A stretch of 58,359 nucleotides of DNA from Candidatus Eiseniibacteriota bacterium. Lineage in GTDB: Bacteria; Eisenbacteria; RBG-16-71-46; CAIMUX01. Position numbers and translations under genes: made by a program. A model generated the notes under the pieces. That model was not told where the DNA came from. It ran no database searches and saw only the letters and a program-made list of their open reading frames with translations. Below, piece by piece: positions 1,689-51,451 of this stretch (positions are counted from its first letter, which is position 1; the number at the start of each line of letters is the position of its first letter). The DNA lies in NCBI GenBank assembly GCA_903844735.1, contig CAIMUX010000067.1, positions 1 through 58,359 of the forward strand, given 5' to 3'.

Positions 1689-3236
1689 CTACATCGAATC
1701 CTGAATCTTCCTCTGCGCCTTCCGATCCCCCGCCGCCCCGATCTTCAGGATCATCCGGTACTTCGTCACCGTCCGCCGGCTGATAGCCGTGCCGCGCTGC
1801 TTGAGTTTCTCGGAAAGCTCGGAATCGCTCCAGGGACTTTCGGGATTCTCTTCCTCGTTAATGAGCCGGGAGAGGACGTCCATGATCGACTTGTTGGAGA
1901 CCTTCTCGCCGCGCCGGTTGGTGAGGGAGCGGGAGAAGAAGGCGGAGAGCGGGATCAGTCCCCGTGGCGTGAGGATGAACTTGTCCTTGAGGATCCGCGA
2001 GACGGTGGCTTCGTTGAGGCCGAGCTTTTCCGCGAGCTCCTTCTGGAGGAGCGGCTTCAGTGCCTCCTCGCCGCGCTCGACGAACTCCGACTGCTCGCGC
2101 ACCAGAGTGGCACCGATCTCGAAGAGAGTGCGATCGCGATACTCGGTGGCCCGGACCAGCATCCTGGCATCCTGCCGCATGGTACGCAACCGTTGCAGCG
2201 TCTCGGCCGGATCGTCGGTGGGTTCCACCAGCTCCTTTTCGAGGACGTTCTTCCGCGGGATCTTTGTCTCGCGGTAGCGATACCGCCCGGAGAGCGGGTG
2301 GCTGAGGTTGACCTGCCACTCGTTGTCGATCTTGTCCACGGTGAGGTCGGGGTAGCGTGTGGGCTCCAAGGACTGGTCAAGGAGCGAGAGTGGGCTGCGG
2401 TAGAGGCGGTGCAGGTCTTCGAGCGCTTTGTGTAACTCGGCGGTGGTGACATCGAGCTTGCGGGCTACTTGGTCGAGGTTGCGCGGTTTGATGTCGGCGA
2501 GGACGTCCTCGCGGATGAGCCGGGCCGCCAGCGAGTCCTGCTTGCCCTGCCGTTCCAACTGGATGAGGAACGAGTGGGACTGGTTGTAGGCGGCGACGCC
2601 GGGCGGATCGAGCTGAAAGCGGAGAACCTGCAGCACCTCATCCAGCAGGGGCCGGTCCTCGGGTTTGAGCTCGAGGGGGCCGAGGAGCCAGGCGTCGGGA
2701 TCCAGCTTCAGCCGGGCTCGCCACTCGTCGATCGGGAGAAGACCCAAGACCTCGAAATCGCGCTCTTCCTCGGGCGGTGGCAGGAAGCCATGTGAGTCGA
2801 GGCTCTGCAGGAGTTTGAGCGCCAACTCCATGATCGGCCGCTTTATATCTAGCTCTCGGACCTGCGTCTCAAGCTGCTCGTACGGTGAAACCTGTGCCAC
2901 CGCGATTACGCCGGTGGTCTCGTCGGCGGGGAACTCTTCGTGCGTCCAGGGCGAGGCGGCCACCGGGTCGAGCCACGCCTCGGACTCCTGGAAATCGGCC
3001 TCCTGGCGGGCGGTCCGTGTGGTGGCGGCGACGACGTCGGCGTCGCGGACGAAGCGCGGGTCGGTGGCCTGCTCGTTGCGCTCCAGCCACGGGTTCACCA
3101 TGACTTGCTGCTCGAGCTGTTGCACCGCCTCGAGAATGGGTGCCTGGATCAGTTCCAGGTTCATCCGCATCTGCGGGGTCAGCGTCTGGGTCAGCGACAT
3201 CCGCTGTCCCATGTGCAGGCCTTGTCTCATGCTCAT
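1689..3236 (-). CDS. rpoN: RNA polymerase sigma-54 factor
   Basis: A 515-residue sigma-54, a normal length for the family. The N-terminus has the glutamine/leucine-rich activator-response region (LTQTLTPQMRMNLELIQAPI). A core-binding domain follows, then a helix-turn-helix around residues 395-420 (AEKLGLNEATVSRILKDK) and LTPRGLIPLSAFFS. Near the C-terminus SRRTVTKYRMIL is the RpoN box that reads the -24 element. The ATG at 3236 has GAGGGA upstream with proper spacing. It is monocistronic here, flanked by an ATPase remnant and a cupin-GNAT gene. Sigma-54 needs bacterial enhancer-binding proteins; none is encoded in this window. Confidence 0.97.
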   Translation of the reverse strand: MSMRQGLHMGQRMSLTQTLTPQMRMNLELIQAPILEAVQQLEQQVMVNPWLERNEQATDPRFVRDADVVAATTRTARQEADFQESEAWLDPVAASPWTHEEFPADETTGVIAVAQVSPYEQLETQVRELDIKRPIMELALKLLQSLDSHGFLPPPEEERDFEVLGLLPIDEWRARLKLDPDAWLLGPLELKPEDRPLLDEVLQVLRFQLDPPGVAAYNQSHSFLIQLERQGKQDSLAARLIREDVLADIKPRNLDQVARKLDVTTAELHKALEDLHRLYRSPLSLLDQSLEPTRYPDLTVDKIDNEWQVNLSHPLSGRYRYRETKIPRKNVLEKELVEPTDDPAETLQRLRTMRQDARMLVRATEYRDRTLFEIGATLVREQSEFVERGEEALKPLLQKELAEKLGLNEATVSRILKDKFILTPRGLIPLSAFFSRSLTNRRGEKVSNKSIMDVLSRLINEEENPESPWSDSELSEKLKQRGTAISRRTVTKYRMILKIGAAGDRKAQRKIQDSM

Positions 3237-4403: not shown

Positions 4404-4650
4404 TGGACCCTGCCGGTGCAGAGAGAACTCCCCCGGTGGCTCTGCATCTACCGGCATCTTGATGGGTTATCCTGCACCGCCCGCAACTGGGCGTCGAGGG
4501 GGATCCTCTGCACCCCGGTCTTCATCACGACCATCCTGCCGAGGCTGCGAACCCGTCGCGTGCGAACTCGCCGCCAGCCTTGCCCGCGCTGCGTTCCGCT
4601 GGTACCGTAGCGCCCAGCACCATCGGATCCAACCAAGGGAGGGATTCCCG

Positions 4651-5973
4651 ATGATATCGAGAACCCAAGGTGCGCCGGGTGCGCGCCAGGTTCCGTTTTT
4701 CGCCACACTGCTTCTCGTTCTGCTCGCCGTGGTTGTTGTGGTCGTCGGCTGTGGCCAGAAGGGCGACGGCAAGGGAGACGGCAAGGACGGGGGCAAGGGC
4801 AACGGCAAGGAAAGCGCCGCCGCCATCACCGACACCACCGCGTTTGGCGATGCCCGCGCCGTTGCCGATACCACGGCCCGCCTCGCCGCCTGGGACACCT
4901 TCTTGAAGACCTACCCGACAAGCTCCTTCCGGCCCCGAGCCGTCGCGTACTACTGCGGCCTTCTCATGGCCGTCGATCCAGCAAAGGCCAGCGATTTTGT
5001 GGCGACGGCCCTACCGGTGGAAAAGGACCCAGCCACCCGCGGCCAACTCCACTATGCGGCCTACACGTACGCCCAAGAGCACGCGGCCGACCGTCTTCCC
5101 GCGGTGCTGCAGGCGATGCGGGACGATCCACTGATCGCGACCGATGCGTGTAACATGGTCGCGTGGGATCTGGTGGAGCGGAACCAGCTTCTGGACGAGG
5201 CGATCGCTCTGGCGGCGATCGGCGTGCAGAAGGCGCCGGATGATGGGTCGAGGGGCTCCATTCTTGACACGCAGGGTTGGGCGCACTTCGCGAAGGGCGA
5301 GTATCTGCGGGCCGTCGAGTTATTGGTCCAGGCCGTCGGCCTCGACAAGGAGAACACGGAGCTCCAGATGCATCTCGCCCAGGCCTACGACAAGGCCGGT
5401 CAGTCGAAGGAAGCGCTCGCCGTCTACACCGAGCTTCTGATTCCCGCCGAAGACCCGATGATTCGTGAGAGGGTGGCGGCGTTGAGCAAGGCCGCCGGCC
5501 AGTCGCCTGCCGGGCTGTTCCAGCGCATCGACCAGGCTCGGGAGGCGAACGCCAAGCCGGCGCCGGCTTTCACTCTCAAGAACTATGACGGCAAGGAGCT
5601 CGCCTTCGCCGACACCAAGGGCAAGGTCGTCCTCCTCAACTTCTGGCACCCGACCTGAGGCCCCTGCCGTGCGGAGTATCCGCACTTGCAGGAGATCTAT
5701 CAGCAGTACAAGGATCGTGGCTTCACCGTGTTTTCTGTCGAGACGTCGAATCGCCCGCAGTTAGCTAAGGAGTTCACCGACAAGGTGGGCGCGACGTTCC
5801 CCATCGTGCTCGATGATGCCAAGGTCAACAAAGAACTCTTCGGCATCCCCGGCACGCCGACCAACCTGCTCATCGACCGAAGGGGCAGAGTCTACTTCAC
5901 TTCGATCGGCTACAGCCCGGGTCACGAGAAGGCGCTGGCCGCGATGGTGGAGTATCTGTTGAAGCGGTCCTGA
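4651..5973 (+). CDS. TPR/TlpA-like thiol-disulfide lipoprotein, selenoprotein with in-frame UGA (Sec336)
   Basis: Read as one 440-residue protein with TGA at 5656-5658 decoded as selenocysteine. ATG 4651 follows GGGAGG by 8 nt. Residues 1-34 are a lipoprotein signal ending VVVVVVGC; a Gly/Lys/Asp-rich linker follows. Residues about 60-310 contain TPR-like helices (GWAHFAKGEYLRAVELL, HLAQAYDKAGQSKEAL). The C-terminal domain is TlpA/ResA-like: VVLLNFWHPT, then U, then GPCRAEYPHLQEIY, and the cis-Pro motif GIPGTPTNLLIDRRG. Homology continues unbroken on both sides of the UGA, which sits exactly where the first cysteine of CGPC belongs. A hairpin of the bacterial SECIS type follows directly (separate entry). 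The likely role is thiol-disulfide exchange outside the cytoplasmic membrane. No sel genes are in the window, so decoding capacity is inferred. Confidence 0.88.
5656..5692 (+). promoter_or_regulatory. bacterial SECIS-type stem-loop directly after in-frame UGA
   Basis: The UGA is at 5656-5658. The lower stem CCUGC (5663-5667) pairs with GCAGG (5688-5692). After a small internal bulge (C 5668 against UU 5686-5687) the upper stem GUGCGG (5669-5674) pairs with CCGCAC (5680-5685). The apical loop is AGUAU, with a G-U at 5676-5677. The loop G lies 17 nt after the UGA, inside the spacing typical of bacterial SECIS elements, where SelB needs a short stem and a G early in the loop. The hairpin is inside coding sequence, as expected for bacteria. 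Confidence 0.82.
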
Positions 5974-5998
5974 CCGACGGCCCGCATAGCCAGCTTCC

Positions 5999-6156
5999 TT
6001 CATGAAATCCGTCGCGAGACGGCCGAAATGCCCGTAGTTGCAAGGCGCGCGACGCTTTCCCGACGAAGGCGTACTCCATGCCGTGCGTCGAGGAGGGAAA
6101 GCTAGCGCAACGCAGCAAATACGGGCAGATCCGATGTCGTAGCAGGATTTCATGAA
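5999..6156. repeat. 158-bp long-inverted-repeat (hairpin) element
   Basis: The element is bounded by perfect 12-bp inverted ends, TTCATGAAATCC at 5999-6010 and GGATTTCATGAA at 6145-6156. Each arm is about 75 bp, and further blocks pair across the element (TGCCCGTA, GCGC, GCTTTCCC). The centre is near 6073-6082, where GGCGTAC faces GTGCGTC. It fills the gap between the selenoprotein stop (5973) and the GTG of the M55 gene (6180). As RNA it would fold into one long imperfect hairpin and could act as a terminator or as an RNA-processing site. No reading frame in it looks real. A half copy is at 4351..4403, and a related, amplified form is at 58072..58359. Confidence 0.8.
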
Positions 6157-6179
6157 CGAAGTGGGATAGGGAGGTTTCT

Positions 6180-8728: not shown

Positions 8729-8835
8729 GGGGGAGACTATGAAGTAATCGTCCCTTCATGTAAAGACGAATGTGGATCTATGGGGCGGCACCCTAGCGGA
8801 CAGAGATGTAACCGATTATTTTGCAACGCGTTCCG

Positions 8836-8965
8836 CAGCCCGAGCCGGCGACCGCCTCGGCAAACTTCTCATAGTCGACCGGCTTGGTGATGTAGACGTT
8901 GCACCCCAGCTCGTAGCACCGCGTGATCTTGCGCTCGTCATCGGTGTTGGTGAGGATGGCGACGG
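8836..8965 (-). pseudogene. duplicated fragment of the response-regulator gene
   Basis: This 130-bp stretch is almost identical to 9858..9988, the coding sequence for the C-terminal half of the response regulator at 9801..10265. It covers the part encoding the YITKPVDYEKFAEAVRRLG region. Differences include a one-base loss (GCGACCGCC against GCGAACCGCC) and several substitutions. It has no start and no phosphorylation site, so it is a non-functional partial copy. It occupies most of the 334-bp gap between the ATPase and the MNT-HEPN pair; nothing else coding is visible there. Confidence 0.85.
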
Positions 8966-9062
8966 TCTAATGAATGCCCTAGAGGTGTCGCCCCTGGACG
9001 CGAACGATGAGTTGCGGCTCGGTCCCCGCGCTGGCAAAATAGGCCACGGGAGGCAGGTGCTC

Positions 9063-9407
9063 ATGAAATCCAAAGCGGACAATCGATCGGCGCCGGGCGC
9101 GCCTGCCCTGTCTCGCTCCGGCTTGCGGGTCGGCATCCGGGGAGCCGTTGGCAAGAATCTGGATCTGACCCGGTACCGAGTCTTCCTCTTCGGGTCCGAG
9201 GCTTCCGGCACGGCGGCTCCCGGTTCAGATGTGGATGTTGGAATCTGGGGCCCGGAGCCGATCGCCGGCGCGATCCTGGCCCGGATCCAGGAAGAGCTGG
9301 AGAATCTGCGAACGCTGCGCCTGTTTGACGTGGTGGATTTCGCCCGGACCGACGAGACGTTCCGGTCCGTGGCGCTACGGGGGAGTGAGCCGCTCAATGA
9401 CCCGTGA
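9063..9407 (+). CDS. nucleotidyltransferase (MNT) of an MNT-HEPN pair
   Basis: 114 residues. FLFGSEASGTAAPGSDVDVG is the nucleotidyltransferase motif (GS...G...SDxDxG). The N-terminal 30 residues (APGAPALSRSGL) look disordered. ATG 9063 is preceded by GGGAGG. The stop overlaps the next start by 11 nt, so the two are translationally coupled. In characterised systems of this type the MNT protein is the antitoxin and modifies its HEPN partner. Whether this pair works as a toxin-antitoxin system is inference from family and arrangement. Confidence 0.8.
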   Translation: MKSKADNRSAPGAPALSRSGLRVGIRGAVGKNLDLTRYRVFLFGSEASGTAAPGSDVDVGIWGPEPIAGAILARIQEELENLRTLRLFDVVDFARTDETFRSVALRGSEPLNDP

Positions 9408-9789
9408 CGATATATTGTTGAGCGACTTCGCCAAGGCTGGCGAGCGGCTGGTGGAAGCCCTGTCGCAGCCGGAGACCGACCTCCTGCGGGACGCCTGCAT
9501 CCAGAGATTCGAGTTTTGCTTCGAGCTGGCATGGAAAAGCATTCAGGCCGTCGGTCGCGCCTATGGCCAGGATTGCTCGTCCCCTCGCGTGGCGTTCGGG
9601 ATCGCGCTGCGCAACGGCTGGATTAGCGACGAGATTCCGTGGCTTGACATGCTGACCGCGCGAAACCAGACGTCTCATACCTATCGCGAGACGCTTGCCC
9701 AGAGCGTATACGCGGAGCTGCCCGGGTTTCTGGGGCACCTTCGGGCACTATCCCAAACCCTACGGGAGCGGCTGGACGACACCCGATGA
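9397..9789 (+). CDS. HEPN/HI0074-type nucleotidyltransferase-substrate-binding protein
   Basis: 130 residues, all-helical, of the HI0074 type (RFEFCFELAWKSIQAVGRAYG is characteristic). MLTARNQTSHTYRE carries RNQTSH, an R-x4-H element like the HEPN RNase motif. ATG 9397 overlaps the MNT gene by 11 nt and has GGGGAG upstream. After the stop, at about 9795, the short sequence CGCACTATTCATGA resembles the flank and end of the hairpin repeat. It is the likely toxin or substrate-binding partner of the upstream MNT protein. Confidence 0.82.
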   Translation: MTRDDILLSDFAKAGERLVEALSQPETDLLRDACIQRFEFCFELAWKSIQAVGRAYGQDCSSPRVAFGIALRNGWISDEIPWLDMLTARNQTSHTYRETLAQSVYAELPGFLGHLRALSQTLRERLDDTR

Positions 9790-33469: not shown

Positions 33470-36400
33470 CTATCGCAGCAAAAGCACCTTCTCGGTCCGC
33501 CGCTCCCGTGAGGTTTCCAGCCTGACGAGATAGACACCCGCGGCAACCGGGTGACCGCGATCGTCCCGTCCATCCCAGGTAGCCACGTAGTAGCCCGCGT
33601 CTTTGCGGGCCCCCTGGACGACGGTACGCACCAACCGTCCGTCCGGACTGTATAACGACAGGCGGACGTCGTCACTCCGCGGAATACCGTACCGAACGGT
33701 GGTGCTCCTGCGGGCGGGGTTGGGAACGCAAGGAGCCAGCCAAAGAGCCGGCGGCGGCTCCGCGCCATGGGTTGTCACCGTGAGCGGCCCGAAATATGCC
33801 CGTTCGCCATTCGGTGCCAAGCCTGCTATTCGGTACTCGTATTCCCGGCCGGGAAGGATGCCGGTGTCGACAAACCGATACTCGCCGCTCACGGCCGGAG
33901 CCAGAGGCTCCGCGGTGATCGGTATCTCCTCTTCGAGGTCCGGCGACACCTGCCGTCGGTAGACTTCGAAGCCGACGTAGTGAAGATCAATCGGTGTCTG
34001 CCAGGAAAGGACCACCCCCTCGTCCCCGGCCTCCGCCGTGAGGCTGGACAGCATGATCGGCGTCACCGTCTGCACCACGAAGGTAATCGGGATCTCGACC
34101 ACCGGCCGGATCAGGTCGTTGGTTTCGAGGAGCACCTTCGCCCGGTACTCGCCCGCCTCCATGAACTCGGAATTGAAATGCAAAACAAGATCACCTCCGG
34201 CCTCGGCGCCGATCGTGAGGTGAACCGGACCGACCTCCACCCAACTCGCCCCGAATCCATTCGGCATCGCGTCGAACTGTCCGGGTCCTTGGCCGGCTAT
34301 CGTGAAGGCGGAGGCATCGATCCGCCACGGTCGCCCGAGTTCCACCTGGTCCAGGCCGAACGTGATCCACCCGTCCTGAAGGTCGAGCGTCAGCAATCCC
34401 GACGTCGGATTGAAGTCGCCATCAAGCAGCAAGGCCGGCACGCCGAAGTTTTCCAACGCAAAGGCCCCGGCAAGGATCGCGAACTCCGCGCCGGAGGATC
34501 CGGTCTCGGTATTCTGGTCCGTGTTCAGGTAGACCACCAGCGACGAGGAGGACCACAGGGGAAGCATCGACTCGTGGGATGTGATCCGCAGAAAGAGTGT
34601 GTCATCGACCTGCTGTACCAACAGGGCAGCCATGTCCGGGCTGGCCTCGGGCGGATCATTCGGATCGGTGGCCAGTGTGTCCCATTCTGATGGCTGTAAC
34701 ATGGACCCTCTCGGCAGAGCGGACCGAAGAAGCTTCCCGTGCGGCTTAGCCATGCCTTTATACAGACACGCGAGCTGCGGCCATGGAGATGACTGCGGGT
34801 GCGCGGGCCGCAACGTCGCCGGCGGCGTCACCGAGTCCCGGGACAGGAGCGACGACGACGGCGCCACGGTGTCCGTGGGCCGGAGAGCCGCCGTTGCCGT
34901 CACCGTATCCGCGGCTCGGCTCCCCCCCGACCGGCGGGCAGACGGCAGGACAATCGAGATCCGCATGTCATCAATCGTCTGCTCGTTGTCGGCGAGGTAG
35001 GCATTCACTTCCAGGACTCCGGTCCCGGCATTGCGAAGGACCAGCGTGGTGTCCACCACGCCGATGGAGTCGAGGCCGGCGGTGAGGGAGGTCAGATCGG
35101 CCGCGTAGGTAGCCAGGAAGGCCATGGCGGACACCGGACCGGCAAGAGGGCTTTCCGCATTCCCGTAGAGAGCGGTGACATAGTACGAGTACGACACATC
35201 GGTGACCGCGGTCGTGTCGCTGTACTGCCGGAGTTCCAGGGGTTCGGAGTTCAAGAGCGTGGGCAAGCCGTCCTTATCGGCGGCGCGATAAACGTTGTAC
35301 CCGGTGACGGGAGTGGATCCGACCGCGGCCAACCCGACGGGAGGATCCCATCGCAGCGGGACCACCGGGCCTACGCCGCTGCGCGCCTGCAGACGCAGGG
35401 GCGGCCCGGGAATCTGCCGTTCAACCACCGAGATGTCATCCAGGTACCAGCCCAGACCGGTGACTCCGTCATCGGAGCTGAAAACGAAGCGGATGCGGAC
35501 ATCTGCCTGTCCGAGGTACCGGTAGAGGTCAAACTGCGCACGCACCCAGCCGTCCGTGCGTCCCGAGTACCCGGGGGATCCTTGCGCGGCCATGACGCGC
35601 GCGGGGTAGTCGCCGACGGGGCGCACGAGAGCCCATGTGAAGCCACCGTCGGTCGAGATCTCAACGAACCCACCGTCATACACCTCTTCACAGGCGAGGA
35701 AGTGGTGGAACACCAGGGCCGCCGAGGTGAACTCCGTCAAGTCGATGGGCGCAGAGACGAGGACCGATCGAGTCTCGTCTGTGTAGGTGCCATTCAGGTT
35801 GGTGGCCCAGACGTTCTGGCCGGAGTAGGCGTCCACCCGGGTGGAATGCCCCCATTCCCAGTCGTAATCACCCTGGAAGCCACCGGCGCCGGCCTCAAGG
35901 TCCCGCTCGATGCCCCGAACGATTCGGAAGGAGTGCCAGCCGCTCGCAGGCTCCGTCGCGATGTTCGGAAGGACGGCCCCGTCCTCGGCCCGAATCTGGT
36001 AGTTCACGCTGTCTCCCAGAGCAAGCCCGTCGGATGAAATGTACGCCAGAGAGCCAAGCCCCCCCGCGGAAGTCATCGGGGTGGTGGTGGGAGAGCCATC
36101 GTTGCGCTTCTGGACCAGGCTGACGAAGTGCAGCGGCTGGTCGAGGTTGTCCGTCACCGTGGCCCGAACCCGGATGGCGTCGATGTCTAACGGCTGGTCG
36201 GGTAGCGACTCGTGCGCGATGACCGGCGGTGTGGAGTCCGTTCCGACTTGGAAAACGAACGGATCGGCTGCGCCGGCCTCCGGCCAGGTGACGCTGGTCC
36301 CGTTCGTGTCGGTGGCGGTGAAGTAGTATCTGATGACCGTCCCCGCAGGCTGCGCCGGAAAGACAGCGGTGTACTCACGGGTGACTCCGGTGGGCGTCAT

Positions 36401-38329
36401 GGTTTCATTCATGGCGGCGACTTCGTTTCCGTGAGTCACGGTGGCGTGGATTCGGACCTGTGCCGGATCGATGGCGAAGACTCCCAGGAATGATGCGGTC
36501 ACGGGCAAGGTTCCTGTCGTGTCCTCGGTGTCCGCCATCGGGACATGGGAGACATGGATTTCGTAGTCCCCGATCCCGTGGGCGCGGAAGATATGCGCGA
36601 TCGTGCCCAGGTTCGGCGTGCCGTCATAGACATCGCCGTTGTCATCGTCGTACACGAGCAGGTCGAAGAAGTAGTCGTCGAAGTTGTCAGCGTATCCGTA
36701 CCGCGCGAAATGGAAAAGGGAGTCCGTCCGGGGGGCGCCCAGAGCCCCCCGCAGATCCCAAAGGGCCGAGGCGATGATGAGTCCGTCATTGTGAGACTCA
36801 CCGTTCCAGTCCTGCGGGTAGACGCGATCCTCGTCGACACGGCGAAGGGAGGAGCCGGGGCCGTAGAAGCCGATCCCCAGCACCGGCTGCCCCATGATGG
36901 TTGTGGCGTAGTAGTCGGAGAAGCCCTCGTGCATGGCGGCGGAGGGAGAGAACGGACGGGAAAGCCAGTCGGTGATCCCGTGACCATACTCGTGGTAGAT
37001 CACGTCGGCCACGCGGGCCATGTTGACGCAGGGCCCCCCCGCTTCGTAGAAGTTGACTCCCGTGCCATCCCAGAAGGCGTTGCAGCTCCCGTGGACGTTC
37101 ACCCAGATGGGCATCGGGTAGTCCAGAAGGTCGAATCCAGGCTCGATCGTCCGGATAAAGTCGTGGGCGATCATGGCGCTGTGATAGGCATCGCGTTCGG
37201 CGATCTGGGCCTCGCCCTCGCCGAAGAGCAGGTCAAGCTGCGCCGGACTGGTATCGGGCACGGCCCGACTGAACGATGCGACCTGTCCGGTGTTCGCGTC
37301 GTACACCACGCCGTATGGACCGCGCAAGCCGACTTGCGCTGTGCGCCCGACATCCCCGGTCGTAACCAAGGAAAAGTTACCGGCGGCATCCGTCACGGTC
37401 TCCACCGAGCCGGCCCCGGAGGGAAAACACGTGACCCCCAGGTGTGGGAAAGGACGATTCTCTAGTACGTCGTCGGCCGTGAGCGGCTCCACCAATCCGG
37501 AGACGTGCCCGTGAACCTCGCCAAACCTAATATTGTTGTATCGCCACAGGAGCGTGCCGTCTCCGGCATCCACGAAACTGACCCACGCACCCGGAGGATC
37601 CTGGGTGCGGAACTCGTACCGCCACGTCAGGCGCTGTTCGTAACGATCCAACCTCCGAATCGGCAGAAAGGTCAGGATCGGGTCACCCGGGGAGGCCGAC
37701 GTGCCGGGAAGTCCGTCCCGAGCCGCCTCCATGGCGGCAGACGGCGCCATCCGGAAGGTGGAGGGCGACGGCACCTCGGAGTACGTGCGGTTGGTCACCA
37801 GAAGAACTTTCCCCTGGCGGCTGAGGCGCAGGCTGACCCGGCTGTTCCAGACCAAGACACCCTCATGCGCTTGCTGGAAGTGAACCCAAATGCCGCCGCG
37901 GTCGCCGACCGTCCGCACCCAGGCCAGCTCATCCGCCGGGACCCAGGGCAGGGCCTCTCCGCGCAGGAAGGCGCGGGCCGCGGCCTCGGCGTTGCTCGTG
38001 TCCACCAAGGCAAAGCCCGGAATCGCCTCGGGCGGACCCTGCAGGCGCTCCGGCACGCGCGACGTCACGTCCCAGCGGGCCACCCATCCCGGATGGCGGG
38101 CGACGAACTCGGTCCACGCCGGAGATCGCGAAAGGGCGGCCCCGATGGCCTTTTCATCCTGGAGACGGATCGATGACGACACTTCCCCGCGCCGATCGAC
38201 CTCGTACTTTGCGGCCTCGGAAGAAGGCTGGAACGCCTGCACTGCCGTGGGAACAGCCGGACCGATGATGAGCAAGCACAAAAGAACCGCAGGCAAACCA
38301 CCACCGCCGACTGAGAATGAGAACCGCAT
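33470..38329 (-). CDS. secreted M36 (fungalysin)-type metalloprotease, multidomain
   Basis: 1619 residues from ATG 38329, which has GGGAGGG 6 nt upstream. A signal peptide ends near AVPTAVQA. A fungalysin/thermolysin-type propeptide region follows. The catalytic zinc motif YHEYGHGITDWL lies at about residue 440, with the third ligand in EGFSDYYA about 25 residues later. Then come Ig-like and FN3 modules, a MAM/jelly-roll-like part (DVRIRFVFSSDDGVTGLGWY), a Thr/Pro/Ser-rich stretch (TVTATAALRPTDTVAPSSS), more FN3 (YEYRIAGLAPNGERAYFG) and a FlgD-Ig-like C-terminus (TTVRYGIPRSDDVRLSLYSP; AAGVYLVRLE). The role is extracellular proteolysis. Complete catalytic residues suggest it is active. Confidence 0.93.
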   Translation of the reverse strand: MRFSFSVGGGGLPAVLLCLLIIGPAVPTAVQAFQPSSEAAKYEVDRRGEVSSSIRLQDEKAIGAALSRSPAWTEFVARHPGWVARWDVTSRVPERLQGPPEAIPGFALVDTSNAEAAARAFLRGEALPWVPADELAWVRTVGDRGGIWVHFQQAHEGVLVWNSRVSLRLSRQGKVLLVTNRTYSEVPSPSTFRMAPSAAMEAARDGLPGTSASPGDPILTFLPIRRLDRYEQRLTWRYEFRTQDPPGAWVSFVDAGDGTLLWRYNNIRFGEVHGHVSGLVEPLTADDVLENRPFPHLGVTCFPSGAGSVETVTDAAGNFSLVTTGDVGRTAQVGLRGPYGVVYDANTGQVASFSRAVPDTSPAQLDLLFGEGEAQIAERDAYHSAMIAHDFIRTIEPGFDLLDYPMPIWVNVHGSCNAFWDGTGVNFYEAGGPCVNMARVADVIYHEYGHGITDWLSRPFSPSAAMHEGFSDYYATTIMGQPVLGIGFYGPGSSLRRVDEDRVYPQDWNGESHNDGLIIASALWDLRGALGAPRTDSLFHFARYGYADNFDDYFFDLLVYDDDNGDVYDGTPNLGTIAHIFRAHGIGDYEIHVSHVPMADTEDTTGTLPVTASFLGVFAIDPAQVRIHATVTHGNEVAAMNETMTPTGVTREYTAVFPAQPAGTVIRYYFTATDTNGTSVTWPEAGAADPFVFQVGTDSTPPVIAHESLPDQPLDIDAIRVRATVTDNLDQPLHFVSLVQKRNDGSPTTTPMTSAGGLGSLAYISSDGLALGDSVNYQIRAEDGAVLPNIATEPASGWHSFRIVRGIERDLEAGAGGFQGDYDWEWGHSTRVDAYSGQNVWATNLNGTYTDETRSVLVSAPIDLTEFTSAALVFHHFLACEEVYDGGFVEISTDGGFTWALVRPVGDYPARVMAAQGSPGYSGRTDGWVRAQFDLYRYLGQADVRIRFVFSSDDGVTGLGWYLDDISVVERQIPGPPLRLQARSGVGPVVPLRWDPPVGLAAVGSTPVTGYNVYRAADKDGLPTLLNSEPLELRQYSDTTAVTDVSYSYYVTALYGNAESPLAGPVSAMAFLATYAADLTSLTAGLDSIGVVDTTLVLRNAGTGVLEVNAYLADNEQTIDDMRISIVLPSARRSGGSRAADTVTATAALRPTDTVAPSSSLLSRDSVTPPATLRPAHPQSSPWPQLACLYKGMAKPHGKLLRSALPRGSMLQPSEWDTLATDPNDPPEASPDMAALLVQQVDDTLFLRITSHESMLPLWSSSSLVVYLNTDQNTETGSSGAEFAILAGAFALENFGVPALLLDGDFNPTSGLLTLDLQDGWITFGLDQVELGRPWRIDASAFTIAGQGPGQFDAMPNGFGASWVEVGPVHLTIGAEAGGDLVLHFNSEFMEAGEYRAKVLLETNDLIRPVVEIPITFVVQTVTPIMLSSLTAEAGDEGVVLSWQTPIDLHYVGFEVYRRQVSPDLEEEIPITAEPLAPAVSGEYRFVDTGILPGREYEYRIAGLAPNGERAYFGPLTVTTHGAEPPPALWLAPCVPNPARRSTTVRYGIPRSDDVRLSLYSPDGRLVRTVVQGARKDAGYYVATWDGRDDRGHPVAAGVYLVRLETSRERRTEKVLLLR

Positions 38330-38785
38330 GGCCACCCTCCCTGGAACATGAAACCCGATGACGACGACGATACGGCAGCGCCCTGAACCGTTGCCCGAGC
38401 CACCTCGGCCGACAGTCTAAGTGCCGCTTTTGGCCCGGTGCAACAGGCAGACTCAACCGCGTGGGCAGCACGCCTCGCAAGGCCCGCTTCGCCATGATGA
38501 GCCGGAGACCCCGAGCCCGGCCGTAGAGGAAGTGTGTCTCCCGGTAGAGCCGGATTCGAGACGGATCTTCCGGGCCTGAGGAAGTCCGAGCGAGACGTTG
38601 TTCATGTCAACCGCGGGTTCCTCCCGGGACCGTTCCCACCAAGGTGCCCTGTTGGGGATTCCTGAACGCGATCTACGGGTAGTCACGGGACGCGGGGGAT
38701 GATGTCGCACCCGTAAAGAAGCTTTATCGACAAGCCGATAACCGCATCAGGGAGAATAACCTCCCGTCTTTACAGCGGATGAGGC
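38330..38785. other. divergent intergenic region
   Basis: 456 bp between the protease gene and the HEAT/HD-GYP operon. It holds a near-consensus sigma-28 promoter pointing to the operon (separate entry) and, at 38750-38765, a small GGGAG/CTCCC inverted repeat. GTAAAGA and TCTTTAC also face each other at 38713-38719 and about 38772-38778. No gene is visible. Confidence 0.6.
38714..38741 (+). promoter_or_regulatory. sigma-28 (FliA)-type promoter
   Basis: TAAAG at 38714-38718 and a perfect GCCGATAA at 38734-38741 match the FliA consensus TAAAGTTT ... GCCGATAA. The gap between TAAA and GCCGATAA is 16 nt where 15 is usual. Transcription would begin near 38748, about 38 nt before the ATG at 38786. 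It would place the HEAT/HD-GYP operon in the flagellar/chemotaxis regulon. Confidence 0.6.
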
Positions 38786-43078: not shown

Positions 43079-43237
43079 AGCCACGTGTTCCCGTAGGATC
43101 CGGCTCTCCTCCTGCAGATACTCGATCACGTCCTGACAACTGGACAGGAGGGGGAACTGCGCCTACAGTTCCCGTCGGACTATCAAGGGCCGGGTGGAAG
43201 GCCCCGCGTGGAGCAGCCCGGCTAGAGGAGGTTGGAC

Positions 43238-45370
43238 ATGGCCCGGTCGCATACCATCGTTCTGATCGCTATCGCGGTGCTCGCGGCGTCGTGTACACAT
43301 GATCGGAACCCCATCACGGTCCTTCCTCCCGGCTCGGCGACCCTCGCGTCGGCCACCGTGGGACCGGATGGAGGCGACCTCCGGTCGGACGGGTTCGTGC
43401 TCTCCGTACCGCCGGGGGCGTTCGGGGCCGCGGCGGACTTGAAGCTCTACGCCGACACCGGGGCGGACTCGGTCGCGTGCACTCCGGTCTCGTCCCGATA
43501 CCGTCTGGAGGGGCTGCCCGTGGACTTCGCCGCGCCCCTGGCGGTTCGCCTGCGTCGCACCGCAGACCCGGCGGATGGTGCGTTGATCGTGCTGGGCGTC
43601 GATGCCTTTTCTCCGAGTCAGGGGCAGAAGCTCACGGCCTGGAGCGTCGTCGATGCCGCCGATTCCTCCGGCTGGATCCAGGGCCGAATCGAGACCGGCG
43701 TGCCGCCCGGTGGGAAGCGCGGATCCCTCGATCGCCCGATCGCCGCGGTCCGCCTCCTGGCCTCGCGCATCGACCGGGAGCACACGACCCCCGCAGGGCA
43801 CTTCCGCCTTTGGACCCCTCTGACCACCCTCACGGCCGAGCAACTGGCGGGTCTCGGCGCCAATCTCGAGGAAGCCTATGACAGGCACCAGCAACTGGGT
43901 TTCCGCTACGAGGCCCGCACGAGGTGGCCCGTGTCGGTCTCCGTGGTGAACCTCGCCCCCACGGTCGACGGATACTACTCGGCCTCCATCCTGGGAGTGA
44001 ACTACGGCACCCTCGAATTCAACGCCCTACGGATGGACAACGTCGCCGAGATGCGTGTCACCGCGGCACACGAATTCCTCCACATGGTGCAGGGCCTCTA
44101 CGACCCGCGATCGGGCTGGGACCAGGCGAGCGGCGGCGGACCGCAGTACTGGCTGGACGAGGCTACCTCGGTCTGGTGCGAGTCCGGCTTTCACGCCGAT
44201 CCCGGGTATTGCTCCAGCGTGCGACAGAACAACGAGCTGACTCCCCTGGGCGGCCTGACGGCCGGACTGCGCGTGGGCGACGCTTTCCACGGCTACGGAC
44301 TGTCCTCCATGATCCGCTTCCTCACGCAGCGCGGAGACTCCGCCTTCGTCTCCCAGGCCTACCGGGCCATCCAGGGCGGCGTGAATCCGGTCGAGGCCGT
44401 GCGCGGAAACCTGCGCACCCCCAGGAAGAGCTGGTGGTGGGAGTACCTGCACGACTTGGTGCGTGGGCGGGTCTATCGCGACGTCACGCCCGGGATCGTC
44501 GAACGAGAGAGGGCGGGCATGTTCCGCATCACTTCTGCCGACGACACTCTGCACACCTTCCAAGCCCAGCTTCCAGACCTCTCAGGGATGATCTACCTGG
44601 TGCGCCTGGACGACCCCCAGATCGACAGCTCCTCGATCCTCGATGTGCACATCACCGGCGGGGAGTGTTCCATTTCCGCCTTCAGCATGCCGGACGCCAG
44701 CGCTTTGGTCCCGCTGGGACAGGCGGCTGACAGCCTCAGGGTCACGGGGCTGCGGCAACTCACCGAGCAGGGTTCCAAGCTGATCATCCTGGTCTCCAAC
44801 CGCCGCGACAGTTCAGCAGGCTACACCGGTACGTCCCCGGTCACCCTCAAACTGCGGGTCGTTCGGGGGATCGACCTGAGCCGTTTCCATTTCGGCTGGT
44901 TGACCCTGACCTACCACGCATTCTGGGGGGGAGACGGCAGGAACCCGTGGGACGTCCCCAGGCAGGACTTGAACTTCTTTAGCGTGCCTCCGGGCCGGTT
45001 CGTGGGTTCAACCTACTCAGTGGCCTGGGACTCCACCGAGACCGGCACCGGGACGCGTTACAAGGGGCACTTTCGGGTCGTGCTCAACCCGGCAACCCTG
45101 CAGGTGCAGTCGTGGTCCGCCGAAAGCCGATGGATCTTCTCCGGGCCGGGCTCAGAGAACGTCTACATCTGCGAGGGAGGCGCCCTGAACCTGACCCGCC
45201 AGAGTTCGACGGAGCTGGCCTGGGAACTCTCGGGCGCGGCCACGTGCGCGCCGCTCACGAAAGTCTACGTCCGGCAGACCTCCGAAGGCCGCGTGGCGTC
45301 GGATCTGCTCCGGCACGAGTGCAATGCTCAGAGCAGCTTCGAGCTGAAGCTCATGGACCCCAACCGCTGA
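43238..45370 (+). CDS. secreted lipoprotein with ZU5-like domain and zincin motif
   Basis: 710 residues. MARSHTIVLIAIAVLAASCT is a lipoprotein signal (lipobox LAASC). ATG 43238 has GGAGG 8 nt upstream. Residues about 35-130 look ZU5-like (GPDGGDLRSDGFVLSVPPGA). Residues near 270-300 carry TAAHEFLHMVQGLYDPRSG, an HExxH zinc site (HEFLH, about 278-282), followed by YWLDEATSVWCESGF with acidic residues that could be the third ligand. The remaining C-terminal half is beta-rich. It is likely a cell-surface metallopeptidase of an undefined family. The HEFLH set is intact; substrate and regulation are unknown. Confidence 0.75.
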   Translation: MARSHTIVLIAIAVLAASCTHDRNPITVLPPGSATLASATVGPDGGDLRSDGFVLSVPPGAFGAAADLKLYADTGADSVACTPVSSRYRLEGLPVDFAAPLAVRLRRTADPADGALIVLGVDAFSPSQGQKLTAWSVVDAADSSGWIQGRIETGVPPGGKRGSLDRPIAAVRLLASRIDREHTTPAGHFRLWTPLTTLTAEQLAGLGANLEEAYDRHQQLGFRYEARTRWPVSVSVVNLAPTVDGYYSASILGVNYGTLEFNALRMDNVAEMRVTAAHEFLHMVQGLYDPRSGWDQASGGGPQYWLDEATSVWCESGFHADPGYCSSVRQNNELTPLGGLTAGLRVGDAFHGYGLSSMIRFLTQRGDSAFVSQAYRAIQGGVNPVEAVRGNLRTPRKSWWWEYLHDLVRGRVYRDVTPGIVERERAGMFRITSADDTLHTFQAQLPDLSGMIYLVRLDDPQIDSSSILDVHITGGECSISAFSMPDASALVPLGQAADSLRVTGLRQLTEQGSKLIILVSNRRDSSAGYTGTSPVTLKLRVVRGIDLSRFHFGWLTLTYHAFWGGDGRNPWDVPRQDLNFFSVPPGRFVGSTYSVAWDSTETGTGTRYKGHFRVVLNPATLQVQSWSAESRWIFSGPGSENVYICEGGALNLTRQSSTELAWELSGAATCAPLTKVYVRQTSEGRVASDLLRHECNAQSSFELKLMDPNR

Positions 45371-45436
45371 CGCGACGGAAAGAAGGCAGCCCCCGAATCA
45401 GTGCCTTGACCCGGCCCGGACTAGCGTCGTTCCGTA

Positions 45437-45767
45437 TCACCGAACCAAGACCACGCGATTCGTCAGGCTCTGATCACCGAAACTCAGACGATAGAAGTAG
45501 ACCCTCATCGCGGCCCGCCCCGCCCGCGGCAGAGCGAAATTGATCGTCACGGAGCCGTCCAAAGGTTGGGTCTCCCCTGACCGAGCACGACGCGCGTGGG
45601 GAGGGTCTCGATCTCCCTCACCGCCGTGATGCACGGCCCGTTGATCACGACCGGCACTTCGCGACAGGAGATGCAGCCGAGCGTGTCCCGGACGCACGGA
45701 CCGGCGCCATCAGGGGCTTCGACTTGACATTCCGAGGGTTCGGGACCGGCAACCGGAATCCGGAGTC
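45437..45767 (-). pseudogene. frameshifted C-terminal fragment of a secreted protein
   Basis: One frame reads GCISCREVPVVINGPCITAV and on to VVLGQGRPN, then another reads LDGSVTINFALPRAGRAAMR and VYFYRLSFGDQSLTNRVVLV before a stop at 45437. Adding one C in AACCTTTGG (about 45566-45574) would join them as GRPNPLDGSVTINF, the RPNPF-type start of a FlgD-like C-terminal sorting domain. There is no start codon upstream; the fragment begins where msrB ends. It is therefore both truncated and frameshifted, unless the missing base is a sequencing error. Confidence 0.65.
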
Positions 45768-46364
45768 TCAGTTCCCGATCCCGGCTGAATCCCGCTCTTC
45801 CCCCTTGAACCCGAGCGCCGCCGAGTTTATGCAATAACGTTGCCCCGTGGGGGCCGGGCCGTCGTCGAACACATGGCCGAGATGCGCGCCGCAGCGGCGG
45901 CAAAGGACTTCGGTCCGTTCCATCCCGTGAGAACGATCTGGGCGGAAAGTGACATTCAGACTGTCGACCGGCGCGTAGAAGCTCGGCCAGCCACACCCCG
46001 AGTCGAACTTGGTGCTGGAGGTGAAGAGATCGGCCCCGCACCCAGCGCAGGTGTAGCGCCCATCGGCGTGGTGGTTCCAGTACGCCCCGGTGAAGGCAGC
46101 ATCAGTCCCCGCCTTACGCATCACCTGGTACTGCTCGGGCGTGAGTCGCTCCCTCCACTCGGCGTCTGTCAGAACCGCCGCCGGAAGCTCGACGACACTT
46201 CCGGTTTCGACCGAGTACACCCGCACCGACGGTCCGGACTCCCTGCGATCCTTTGCCTCTTCTGGGACCGGCATGCGCACAACTCCTTCGCTCGCCTGCT
46301 TGGACGCGTTTCCGCACCCGAGGACGATGCCCACCATGGCAATCAACACCGCCAGCCTGCTCAT
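45768..46364 (-). CDS. msrB: peptide methionine-R-sulfoxide reductase, lipoprotein form
   Basis: 198 residues. [20 protein letters not shown] is a lipoprotein signal (lipobox VLGC), so the enzyme is envelope-anchored. ATG 46364 follows AAGGAGA. The MsrB domain (about 60-190) has CAGCGADLF and [16 protein letters not shown], the two CxxC zinc-binding motifs, and [11 protein letters not shown] with the catalytic cysteine. It repairs methionine-R-sulfoxide outside the cytoplasm. The catalytic residue is Cys, not Sec. Its stop is followed directly by the frameshifted fragment of another gene. Confidence 0.95.
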
Positions 46365-46552
46365 GGGGTCTCCTTTTCGACGACCCTCATTGGATGCGCC
46401 GCACCCACCTCCGGTTGACGTGCCGGCCACACCGACCGGATACTGTGGCGTCGATCTCGTCGGCCCGACGTTCAAGAAGACTCGGCCGGCCAAGCTCTTC
46501 CACGATCGGCCTTGACGCACCGGGCGCGCGACGCCCGCCAGGGAGGTTCCCG

Positions 46553-47518
46553 ATGGAATACGCCGGCCTCGGCCGCACCGGCCTCAAAGTCAGCCGCCTC
46601 TGCCTCGGAACGATGAACTTCGGACCCCTGGCGAATGAAGCAGAAAGCTTCGCCGTGATGGACCGGGCACTGGAAGATGGGATCAACTTCTTCGACACCG
46701 CCGATGTCTATGGCGGGAGCGCGGGGAAGGGGGCCACCGAGGAGATCATCGGTCGCTGGCTGGCCCAGGGCGGCGAACGGCGCGAGCGGGTCGCTCTCGC
46801 CACCAAGGTCTTTGGGCGGATGGGCAACCGGCCCAACGAGGGGCGTCTCTCCGCCTACCACATCCGCCGTGCCTGTGAGGAAAGCCTGCGCCGTCTGCGG
46901 ACCGACCACCTCGACCTGTATCAGATGCACCATGTTGACCGCGACACGCCCTGGGAGGAGATCTGGCAGGCGATGGAGATTCTCGTCCGGCACGGGAAGG
47001 TGCTCTACTGCGGCAGCAGCAACTTCGCGGCCTGGCACATCGCCTGTGCCCAGAACACCGCCGACAAGCGCCACTTCCTCGGCCTCGTCTCCGAGCAATC
47101 GCTCTACAACCTGACCGAGCGGCGGATCGAGTTGGAAGTACTGCCCGCCTGCCGGGCCCTGGGCTTGGGGTTCCTTCCGTGGAGTCCACTGGCCGGCGGG
47201 ATTCTTGGCGGTCGAGGCGGAGCGACGGGCCGCCGGACGAACGACATGGCGAAACAGCGCATCGAGATACACCAGGCGGCGCTTGCAGCCTATGAGGCAT
47301 TCTGCAGCGAAGTGAGTGAGTCACCGGCGACTGTGTCGCTCGCGTGGCTCTTGGCCCAGCCCGGTGTGACTTCAGTGGTCATCGGGCCACGCACCATCTC
47401 GCAGCTCACGGACTGCTATGCCGCACTGGAGATGGAACTCACCGAGCAGACGCTTCTGCGACTCGACGAGATTTGGCCCGGCCCCGGCAACGCCGCGCCG
47501 GAGGCGTACGCCTGGTGA
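46553..47518 (+). CDS. aldo/keto reductase
   Basis: 321 residues. The family pattern is clear: [20 protein letters not shown], the catalytic Asp and Tyr in [13 protein letters not shown], Lys in VALATKVFG, His in [17 protein letters not shown], and NADP-binding segments [12 protein letters not shown] and [11 protein letters not shown] near the C-terminus. ATG 46553 has GGGAGG upstream. It lies divergent to msrB. The AKR subfamily resembles YajO/Tas-like enzymes; the natural substrate is unknown. Confidence 0.93.
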
Positions 47519-47558
47519 GGTGGTCGACAGGCAGCGCTGCGCCACAGGAGGCAGCATC

Positions 47559-48374
47559 GTGTGCCGCATGATCGCCGCCGTGGGCCGGTTCGAGCCGGCG
47601 GCCCTTCGCCGGGCGCTTCTGAGGATGGCCGCCAACGACAACCCGGCCCACGATCACGAATACAGATCGCGCGGTGCGTCGTTCCGTCACACCGACGGCT
47701 GGGGCATGGCCTGGACGCAGGACGGTCGGTTACGCACGGTTCGGCGAACAATTTCGGTGCTGCTGGACGACTGGGTGGAGCGCATCGATCCGCTCCAGAC
47801 CAACATCCTGCTTCTTCACGCCCGGAAGGCCTCGCAACCTGGGAGCATCAGCACCAAGAACACGCACCCATTTCCCGCCACCTTCCTCGGCCGTGACTGG
47901 GCCTTTTGCCACAATGGTGCACTGGACAATCTCAACGGGTTGCGCACGGCGCCGGGGATGGCCCCAGCGGGAGGAACCGACTCGGAGAGCTTGTTCCATC
48001 ACTTTCTGGGGGAGTTGGCAGCGCGCGAGGAGTTGGTGGCGCAAGCCCGCGCAGACAGAACGGTCAACGTGGACACGGTGGGGGCCGCTGCCATCTCGCC
48101 ATCGCAGTTCGAGCGGACGACACCCGAGGCCTCGCTCGCGGCAACGATCGCCGTGCCGAAGGATTTCACGGCCTTACACTGTCTCGTGGCTACCACCGAT
48201 CGGGTACTGGCGGCAGCCTGTCGGCACCCGGCGAGGAGTCAGCCTGGATATCACGCACTGTGGATCGGTGAGGGACCCGGCTTGCGGGCCGTCTCTTCCG
48301 AGCCGGTGGACGGTCTCGGGTGCGCCTGGACGAGGCTTGCCGAGCCGGGGGTCGTGGCCTTGGAGATGGTCTAA
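47559..48374 (+). CDS. class II glutamine amidotransferase
   Basis: 271 residues. It starts at GTG 47559 with AGGAGG 7 nt upstream, giving M-C-R after processing; Cys2 would be the N-terminal nucleophile of the Ntn family. The domain continues with SRGASFRHTDGWGMAW, ILLLHARKAS, NTHPF and FCHNGALDNL, all typical of GATase_6/YafJ-type proteins. It lacks a synthase domain, so it belongs to the stand-alone hydrolase type. It follows the aldo/keto reductase by 40 bp and may share its transcript. Confidence 0.9.
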   Translation: MCRMIAAVGRFEPAALRRALLRMAANDNPAHDHEYRSRGASFRHTDGWGMAWTQDGRLRTVRRTISVLLDDWVERIDPLQTNILLLHARKASQPGSISTKNTHPFPATFLGRDWAFCHNGALDNLNGLRTAPGMAPAGGTDSESLFHHFLGELAAREELVAQARADRTVNVDTVGAAAISPSQFERTTPEASLAATIAVPKDFTALHCLVATTDRVLAAACRHPARSQPGYHALWIGEGPGLRAVSSEPVDGLGCAWTRLAEPGVVALEMV

Positions 48375-48538
48375 CGGTGGTGGTGGCTTCCATCTCAGCG
48401 ACTCCGGCTCCCTTCGTCTGCGACCGGCCCTTCCTCTTCTTGCTGCGCCGAAGCGCCACCGGTGCGTTGTTGTTCATGGGGACGGCTATCCATGCCCGCA
48501 CCCGACAGCGGGTTCCCTTGAGCCTGAACTCCGGCCTC

Positions 48539-49858
48539 TCAGGTGCGTCGGACAACCACGACGGTCATGTCGTCCTGCTGAGCGACGCCCTCGGCGTACC
48601 GATCCGAATCGCCGACAATCGCCTCGACTCTCTTCCGCGCAGACATTTCCGGCATGCCTCGCAGGAGCCGTTTCAACCTTGCGAGGCCGTACTGTTTGCC
48701 GCGTGTGTCCTCACGCTCGATCAGCCCATCGGTGTACAACACCACCGCGTCTCCGCTTTGCAGACACGTCCGACCCTGCGCGTAGCGCGCGGCCGGACTC
48801 GGACCGAGGATAAGACCTCCGCGCTCCAGCGGTCGGAGAGTGGTGCCGTGCTGGTGCAGCGGCGGGTTGTGGCCGGCGTTGCAGTAGACCAGCGCTCCGC
48901 CGGGCCCGAACTCGCCGTAGAACAGCGAGATGAACTTGTTGGAGAGCGCTGCGCGGTGAATCACGCGATTGAGACGCTCGACGGTCCTGGACACCCTGGA
49001 CTTTTCATTCATCCCCATCCGCAGGCCGGTGATGACATCACGGGCCAGGAGCGCCGCGGGTAATCCGTGACCGCAGGCGTCGCCGATGGCGACACCGAGG
49101 AGTCGATCGCGGCGCGGTAGGTAGTCGTAGAGATCGCCACCCACCACTTCGGCGGAACGCGAGTATCCGTGTATCTCATACCCGGCGACCTGCGGAGAGC
49201 CGGATGGCATCAGGCTCTCCTGAATAGTCCGCGCCTCCTCGAGGAGTCCGGCGAGTTTCCCCTGCTGCAGTTTCATGTTGATGACATGCCGGACCGCCGA
49301 GAGCGAATACAGCACCTGCTCCTCGTTGATCTCGCCGTCGACCGAAAAGACAAGGACGTGCGTGTTGCCGGGGCCGACGGCGATGGCCGCGAACGTGGTG
49401 CCGACACCGATCGCCGTGGCGATCTGCTCGTCGTAGCCGGGATCGCCCTTCCGCATGATGAGAAGACCGTCGGCGAGCGTTCGGACATGCGGTGGGTGTT
49501 CGCGCGGTACTCGGTAGCCGATCGGCATCGGCCACGATCCTCCGAATGCACAGCAGAGATAGTAGTCCAGCCCTTCGCTTCGGTAGAGTCGGCCCATCTC
49601 GAACCCGAGGTCGTCGCGGAAGTCGCGCACGAGGATCTGTAAGACAGTCTCAAGCAGCACCGTGCTTTCCTCGATCCGCTCGATGTTGTCGAGCGTGCGC
49701 TCGAGCTTCAAGTAAAGGGCCTTGAAGTCCGAGGATCGCGGCGGAGTCGGCATGATCAAGCCGTCGGTCCCTGTGTCGGACGCCCTGGCGGTCATTGGGT
49801 CGTCCAGTCTGTCGGCCGCTCTTTCAGCCGCTTTGTCGGTCACCGTTTTCGTCTGCAT
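48539..49858 (-). CDS. SpoIIE/RsbU-type PP2C phosphatase with GAF-like domain
   Basis: 439 residues from ATG 49858; no strong ribosome site is seen, and starts at 49795 or 49750 are possible. Residues about 50-200 form a GAF-like sensor (LETVLQILVRDFRDDLGFEM). The phosphatase domain has VVGGDLYDYLPRRDRLLGVA, IGDACGHGLPAALLARDV, LVYCNAGHNPPL, VVLYTDGLIERED and QQDDMTVVVVRR, with the metal-binding aspartates of the SpoIIE family. Such enzymes dephosphorylate anti-sigma-factor antagonists in partner-switching pathways; no STAS or HPK partner is adjacent. Confidence 0.92.
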   Translation of the reverse strand: MQTKTVTDKAAERAADRLDDPMTARASDTGTDGLIMPTPPRSSDFKALYLKLERTLDNIERIEESTVLLETVLQILVRDFRDDLGFEMGRLYRSEGLDYYLCCAFGGSWPMPIGYRVPREHPPHVRTLADGLLIMRKGDPGYDEQIATAIGVGTTFAAIAVGPGNTHVLVFSVDGEINEEQVLYSLSAVRHVINMKLQQGKLAGLLEEARTIQESLMPSGSPQVAGYEIHGYSRSAEVVGGDLYDYLPRRDRLLGVAIGDACGHGLPAALLARDVITGLRMGMNEKSRVSRTVERLNRVIHRAALSNKFISLFYGEFGPGGALVYCNAGHNPPLHQHGTTLRPLERGGLILGPSPAARYAQGRTCLQSGDAVVLYTDGLIEREDTRGKQYGLARLKRLLRGMPEMSARKRVEAIVGDSDRYAEGVAQQDDMTVVVVRRT

Positions 49859-51263: not shown

Positions 51264-51356
51264 CCCTGGCTAGTGTGGTCGCCGCGCCGGCCCAGACCCG
51301 GTCTTCGGCTGGCCAAGGGACTCCGGGACCACAACAAGTCGGAAGCGAAACAGAAA

Positions 51357-51388: not shown

Positions 51389-51451
51389 GCGTGCACATCG
51401 ATCAGACCCGGGTGCCGGTCCCTGATGTGGCGGATGAACCGCCTCGGCCTG

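Follow-up and report, generated by a model that had tools for sequence, protein, structure and literature searches.

Does the in-frame TGA at positions 5656-5658 end a gene, or is it read as selenocysteine (Sec), so that two apparently separate frames make one protein? An earlier note on this DNA had proposed the latter, describing a new selenoprotein with a TPR part and a TlpA-like domain, and the analysis presented here supports that reading in substance. Within the window, i.e., the whole stretch of 58,359 nucleotides that was analysed, its coordinates and motif were reproduced exactly: the frame opens with ATG 4651, the TGA at 5656-5658 is codon 336, and the stop is located at 5971-5973. 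This TGA, embedded in the motif NFWHPT-U-GPCRAEYPHL, is the sole interruption of the frame from 4651 to 5973, with no frameshift and no other stop before 5971, and GGGAGGG is found just 5' of the start codon. It is almost certain that this broken-looking gene yields a single intact redox enzyme, the stop being read as selenocysteine by the bacterium. The features of the locus are as follows:

4636-4644, plus strand: probable ribosome binding site, AGGGAGGGA, read directly from the sequence
4651-5973, plus strand: putative Sec-TlpA/TPR selenoprotein gene, 440 residues, UGA as codon 336, terminal stop TGA 5971-5973
4696-4749, plus strand: N-terminal hydrophobic helix, residues 16-33, predicted signal or membrane anchor (AlphaFold2 helix; hydrophobic sequence)
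4750-4752, plus strand: lipobox-like Cys34 (VVGC), a possible lipidation site judged from sequence only
4753-4815, plus strand: low-complexity KGDGK linker, residues 35-55 (pLDDT below 50 for residues 33-53)
4816-5550, plus strand: helical TPR-type solenoid, residues 56-300 (TPR Pfam matches; modelled helices 56-300)
5551-5970, plus strand: TlpA/ResA-type thioredoxin-fold domain, residues 301-440 (Redoxin and AhpC-TSA Pfam matches; Foldseek)
5656-5658, plus strand: UGA codon for the putative Sec336, first residue of UGPC (sequence and relatives)
5665-5667, plus strand: Cys339, presumed resolving residue (sequence; identical in all rows of the 14-row alignment, replaced by Ser in G391 and G407)
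5669-5685, plus strand: SECIS-type hairpin, six counted pairs of 5669-5674 with 5680-5685
5857-5859, plus strand: Pro403 of GTPT (invariant Pro in the 14-row alignment)

A scan of the TGA codons of the window asked for 60 or more open codons on the 5' side, 50 or more on the 3' side, a Cys close by and a stem of SECIS type with at least 6 bp; three were kept, and only 5656 is located inside a recognisable protein motif. The claim that the second part has no ribosome site of its own does not hold strictly, since GGAG at 5673-5676 lies nine bases 5' (by eye) of TTG 5686, the first in-frame start-type codon 3' of the UGA. It nearly holds, however, as initiation at TTG 5686 would give a product without the active site. 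The GGAG is also part of the hairpin stem and of a conserved Glu codon, and the window gene is the only one among 21 Sec genes with TTG at the codon of 5686.

With the TGA read as a residue, the Pfam domains Redoxin (301-428), AhpC-TSA (302-415) and Thioredoxin (324-389) each run as a single stretch across residue 336, in agreement with the proposal that the two frames are one protein with the UGA at the first Cys of a CGPC motif. Redoxin (79.6 bits, cut-off 26.6) and AhpC-TSA (77.9 bits, cut-off 26) thereby provide the thioredoxin-fold domain above Pfam cut-off that defines the TlpA/ResA-like superfamily, while GSHPx falls just below its cut-off (26.2 against 27 bits) and TPR models match between residues 203 and 269. 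AlphaFold2, given a 14-row alignment in which Sec was written as Cys, returned a model (pLDDT 89.5, pTM 0.80) consisting of a helix at 16-33, a low-confidence linker at 33-53, a solenoid at 56-300 and a thioredoxin fold at 308-438, in which residue 336 sits just before helix 337-356 and Pro403 presumably is the expected cis-Pro of the fold. Over the C-terminal domain, the nearest solved folds found by Foldseek were DsbE-like 3gl3 (TMt 0.91) and ResA 1st9 (TMt 0.92). The description as a lipoprotein stands only in part: the window protein does carry VVGC with C34, but only three of nine aligned Sec members (G000, G003, and G006) have a Cys where the hydrophobic stretch ends, G115 has a Cys inside the stretch, and the remaining five have none there (G015, G018, and G021, for example, have no Cys at the position of Cys34). 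Since most aligned members are without the lipobox-like Cys, "membrane-anchored" is the safer term.

Relatives of the gene carry the same interruption. A contig scan with the single window protein as query found no relative, and a search of 59 genomes at 1e-20 matched 30, the five best non-self matches each having exactly one internal TGA, placed at the same residue (PTUGAC in three, PTURPC, and PTUGPC). A profile of these five relatives matched in 7 of 47 genomes of the phylum of the window, six with Sec and one with Cys (G020), and in 13 of 385 genomes sampled more widely, where three of the genes outside this phylum have Sec; in the phyla to which two of these three belong, matches were obtained in 16 of 20 and 4 of 8 genomes. 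After removal of one duplicate (L058 equals L158 of G398) from the 33 loci examined, codon 336 could be compared in 32 distinct full-length relatives, being TGA in 21 and Cys in 11. The 21 TGA genes are spread over 20 separately assembled genomes and three phyla. An in-frame UGA at a conserved redox position with Cys in homologs, as expected of bacterial selenoproteins, is thus what the comparison shows. Two of the Cys relatives, G391 (L171, CGAS) and G407 (L183, CGPS), have Ser as the second active-site residue; they failed our motif pattern and were included in the Sec/Cys count and the tree and excluded from the stem counts. As the resolving Cys has been lost in these two, a two-residue redox cycle is not universal in the family. 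Domain-only matches (L176-L179) were left out of the counts, and the domain-only match in G017 has a TAG inside its matched stretch. A scan of viral sequences gave six loci matching the thioredoxin part only, and tblastn against plasmids gave 1184 records, all below 60% identity and all short of 80% query coverage. Among ten pairs of genes (nine Sec-Sec and one Sec-Cys), dN/dS by the Nei-Gojobori method was 0.12-0.57 on either side of the UGA; 29 of the 30 ratios could be calculated, saturation of dS having prevented one.

The earlier note had also suggested looking for Cys/Sec exchange at residue 336, and this has occurred repeatedly. In a tree of the 32 rows, built with the Sec/Cys letter masked, 28 rows (21 Sec and 7 Cys) group together with support 100/99, and four Cys rows fall outside; the composition of three of the outlying rows (G161, G176, and G313) is unusual, and G161 is on a long branch. 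On this tree we count seven Sec/Cys changes, with six to seven in bootstrap trees and at least five forced by well-supported branches. A domain-only tree of 92 rows, built before the later genes were found, is less resolved and gives two changes. Within genus g340, closely related genes occur in both TGA and TGT forms, with hairpins that are intact or just decaying. G392 has one Sec copy and one Cys copy; since the contamination of this genome is 6%, it is unsure that both reside in one cell.

The strongest evidence added here, absent from the earlier note, is a covarying hairpin of apparent SECIS type. In each Sec gene, a stem with a small loop directly follows the UGA; in the window, an extra A-U pair (5675/5679) closes a GUA loop, so that the loop is of 3 nt, opens with G and then U, and lies 17 nt after the UGA. 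Folds of 48 nt in the first nine Sec genes ranged from -10.0 to -26.9 kcal/mol. Loop, spacing and energy agree with the bSECIS model as given in section 5 of PMC13188914, and a bSECIS-type hairpin is hence found directly downstream, as in other bacterial selenoprotein genes. The window sequence on its own folds mildly better than its shuffles (z -1.19, with 26 of 200 shuffles at least as stable), and because of this weak single-sequence signal we examined covariation. The stem cells are paired in 53 of 54 cases in the first nine Sec genes and in 125 of 126 in all 21, where four of the six pairs show changes on both sides, and none of 500 shuffles reached the paired percentage, the number of both-side-changed cells or the covariation score of the 21 genes. 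When the stem partners were slid by one to three columns, only 30-66% were paired. The remaining two of the five measures were unremarkable: the number of further pair types was below that of the shuffles, which were at least as high in 500/500 (21 genes) and 498/500 (nine genes), while 7/500 shuffles for 21 genes and 197/500 for nine had as many pairs with changes on both sides. On the tree, two stem pairs underwent four changes each, the two sides changing together in all four independent comparisons, for which the sign test gives p 0.125, the best possible value with four comparisons.

One covarying pair joins the second base of an Ala/Thr/Val codon to the silent third base of a conserved Pro codon, with C facing CCG in 14 genes and U facing CCA in seven, a pattern for which protein constraint alone is insufficient as a cause. 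Protein constraint does contribute to the invariant stem columns, which also encode a conserved Glu and Pro; two of the six pairs never vary and are uninformative. In Cys homologs read in the same register, taken as ungapped, none of 84 had all six pairs and two had five. These controls comprise 79 loci from the best 80 of 587 relatives, together with L057, L058, and L147-L149; as the set was limited to the best 80 and one of the two search patterns requires Cys, these loci give no estimate of how rare Sec forms are and served only as Cys controls. Close Cys relatives with TGT or TGC codons keep the stem, with six of six pairs in G390 (L169) and five of six in G389 (L167), G392a (L168), and G396 (L161), and G398 keeps two of six. 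These stems therefore appear to be fossil SECIS elements, pointing to a change from Sec to Cys.

The machinery for Sec insertion is present in the host. The earlier note had named selA, selB, selC and selD as the genes to search for, and all four were found in the genome to which the window belongs as contig C67 (5.4 Mb, 142 contigs, 95.8% complete, 4.99% contamination). selA (485 bits), selB (325 bits) and selD (368 bits; L018 on contig C103) are above their cut-offs, and selD is itself a UGA gene with the motif CAGUASK. The host tRNA-Sec (73.1 bits) is above the Rfam cut-off and was called tRNA-SeC with anticodon tca (UCA) by ARAGORN, which assigned a second tRNA-Sec match above the cut-off (50.2 bits) to tRNA-Leu. 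In the window itself, neither Rfam at its gathering thresholds nor a tRNA search gave a match. At E 0.001, tRNA-Sec, selB and selD each matched in 14 of 14 control genomes, and therefore only matches above cut-offs count; these were seen for tRNA-Sec in 5/14, selB in 2/14, selD in 2/14, and selA in 1/14. The complete set of selA, selB, selC and selD that bacterial selenoproteins need is thus accounted for. In the phylum of the window, selA was matched in 43 of 47 genomes and in 26 of 26 of good quality. Eight of nine tested genomes carrying a Sec gene have selA above cut-off, and the ninth (G006, 75% complete) has a selA fragment at a contig end. Three of four tested Cys carriers have no selA (G161, G176, and G313), and G020 uses Cys despite having it. 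From the frame, the conserved UGA, the covarying SECIS, the host machinery, the predicted fold and the Cys/Sec exchange, all established by computation, we infer that selenium is inserted at residue 336, and consider it highly probable that UGA 5656 is decoded as selenocysteine and that the gene encodes a selenoprotein.

Two other explanations of the TGA can be weighed against this. It could be a premature stop, either of a decaying pseudogene or through an assembly error, with the C-terminal half as a remnant. A lone in-frame stop is indeed what would be expected of a young pseudogene, and the source is an assembly of 142 contigs with 4.99% contamination, but TGA is found at the identical codon in 21 genes from three phyla, and its presence in 20 separately assembled genomes argues against a sequencing error. 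Since dN/dS moreover stays below 0.6 after the UGA, the frame has neither a frameshift nor a second stop before 5971, and the hairpin covaries, we rejected this explanation, which is extremely improbable. Decoding of UGA as Cys or Trp through a variant code or a suppressor tRNA would fit the Cys found at residue 336 in 11 of the 32 relatives, yet UGA terminates 17 of the 22 listed ORFs of the window (the selenoprotein gene included), several of them supported by Pfam, which makes a general code change unlikely. The host has a complete Sec set with a Sec-type selD, and Sec decoding, unlike a general suppressor, would call for a conserved hairpin. On these grounds a code change was rejected too, and we regard it as hardly credible.

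The putative selenoprotein resembles several known systems. ResA, TlpA and DsbE (CcmG) have a thioredoxin fold with a CxxC-type motif at the same place, and ResA is membrane-anchored, as the window protein is predicted to be. In contrast to these proteins, it would have Sec for the first Cys and has a TPR-type solenoid of roughly 245 residues between anchor and domain; against the NCBIfam model of ResA (PRK03147) it scores 97.6 bits with a cut-off of 170, placing it outside ResA proper. The NCBIfam family NF041054 ("ResA-like WAxxUGC motif-containing protein") is also a long ResA-like selenoprotein, but has a UGC motif instead of UGPC, and the window protein scores 56.4 bits against its cut-off of 300. 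The Trx7/PDZ selenoprotein (NF041199), listed in the review table of PMC13188914, is of thioredoxin type and, as its name shows, has a second non-catalytic domain like the TPR fusion here; it combines CxxU with PDZ rather than UxxC with TPR, and is not among the NCBIfam matches of the window protein, for which no model scored above cut-off; for the other 13 members of the 14-row alignment, the NCBIfam families matched are given without cut-offs. Closest are the catalogued UxxC selenoproteins: Table 1 of the same 2026 review includes a UxxC "Redoxin family protein" and a UxxC "Thiol-disulfide isomerase-like protein", and the relevant passages of PMC9312934, PMC1088965, and PMC2398784 agree with it on UxxC selenoproteins. 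These redoxin (PF08534) and thiol-disulfide isomerase-like (cd02966/PF13905) proteins share UxxC in a TlpA/redoxin domain; their entries, with HEU0032618.1 and MBA3499694.1 as representatives, mention no TPR, and going by these descriptions the window protein is set apart from them. The term "TPR" is absent from the main text of PMC13188914, no matching terms were found in PMC12013277, and in the open-access literature, a scope that leaves subscription papers mostly outside, we found no relevant paper on TPR- or tetratricopeptide-TlpA selenoproteins, on selenoproteins of Eiseniibacteriota/Eisenbacteria, or on ResA-like selenocysteine. Hence, UxxC selenoproteins of this kind have been described before, and a variant fused to TPR appears to be unnamed. 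The claim of a new selenoprotein is better worded as one of a new subfamily, given that selenoproteins of the UxxC TlpA-like and redoxin types have already been published (PMC13188914). We lean slightly towards an unnamed anchor-TPR-(Sec)TlpA subfamily in three phyla, in which Sec is ancestral, Cys has replaced it several times, and Cys genes keep fossil SECIS elements.

How the enzyme works can be proposed from its parts. The ribosome would start at 4651, and at UGA 5656 the hairpin of 5669-5685 would direct SelB and tRNA-Sec to insert Sec. The finished protein may then be exported and anchored in the membrane through the N-terminal helix or through a lipid, so that the TPR-type solenoid, carrying the Sec-TlpA domain, would be displayed outside the cytoplasm. 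There, Sec336 would act as nucleophile on substrate disulfides, Cys339 would resolve the selenenylsulfide, a DsbD-like transmembrane reductase could regenerate the domain, and the TPR part might select or dock the client. A DsbD-like protein of 774 aa with DsbD_TM and thioredoxin domains is encoded on contig C90 of the host. Among the ORFs scanned around the genes in the window, G003, G006, and the G015/G021 pair, no neighbour gene was conserved, and gene context therefore yields no client; the G015 and G021 loci are both flanked by an MFS gene and tig-clpP-clpX, and G003 also has an MFS gene nearby. Overall, we consider the predicted role as an extracytoplasmic thiol-disulfide reductase reasonably probable.

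Two further readings concern novelty and substrate rather than the TGA. The protein might be an already recorded selenoprotein, either the "Redoxin family protein" (PF08534, UxxC) or the "Thiol-disulfide isomerase-like" one (UxxC), with the TPR part as an unremarked extension. This reading is compatible with Sec decoding and bears on novelty; both categories are found in the 2026 review table (PMC13188914) and in passages of the 2022 review (PMC9312934), and the C-terminal domain matches Redoxin at 79.6 against 26.6 bits, but the fusion is not named in the tables and passages concerned and the protein exceeds no NCBIfam cut-off, so that we hold it possible and on the whole unlikely. It is doubtful, and in our view improbable, that the main substrates of the Sec enzyme are peroxides or another small oxidant instead of protein disulfides, in the manner of Sec-peroxiredoxin or GPx-like proteins. 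AhpC-TSA above its cut-off, GSHPx just below (26.2 against 27 bits), and CxxS in two Cys relatives would suit such an activity, whereas UxxC spacing and nearest folds of ResA/DsbE type suit TlpA-type reductases better.

The analysis also gave several observations on the surroundings of the gene. Directly behind it, at 5987-6168, two nested imperfect inverted repeats with 24-nt arms are 83% and 75% complementary, and their 5999-6031 part has no second copy in the window. A sigma-54 factor gene (rpoN) is located near the selenoprotein gene at 1689-3236 (minus strand). At 8772-9789 (plus strand), overlapping nucleotidyltransferase (NTP_transf_2) and NTase_sub_bind genes form an MNT/HEPN-like pair, which we take to be of the kind found in toxin-antitoxin modules. 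A signalling run follows at 9801-29859 (minus strand), where seven scanned ORFs have PocR/PAS histidine kinase, response-regulator and CheB-CheR-PAS domains, and a 1621-residue ORF with an InhA-like MAM domain occupies 33470-38335 (minus strand). Seven large ORFs at 43232-57106, putative as genes, had no Pfam match at 1e-10.

Where UGA is always annotated as a stop, the window gene and its 20 Sec relatives would come out truncated or split, and since all 26 good-quality genomes of the phylum of the window gave a selA match, this phylum may hold more unannotated selenoproteins. The fusion, an unusual build present in at least three bacterial phyla, adds to the known thioredoxin-fold selenoproteins. 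In conclusion, the best use of the find lies in the naturally occurring series of Sec genes and Cys genes, with their fossil SECIS elements: the forms of genus g340 provide a series of apparent Sec-to-Cys replacement, and, if this reading is true, the series would allow measuring what selenium buys an extracytoplasmic reductase.
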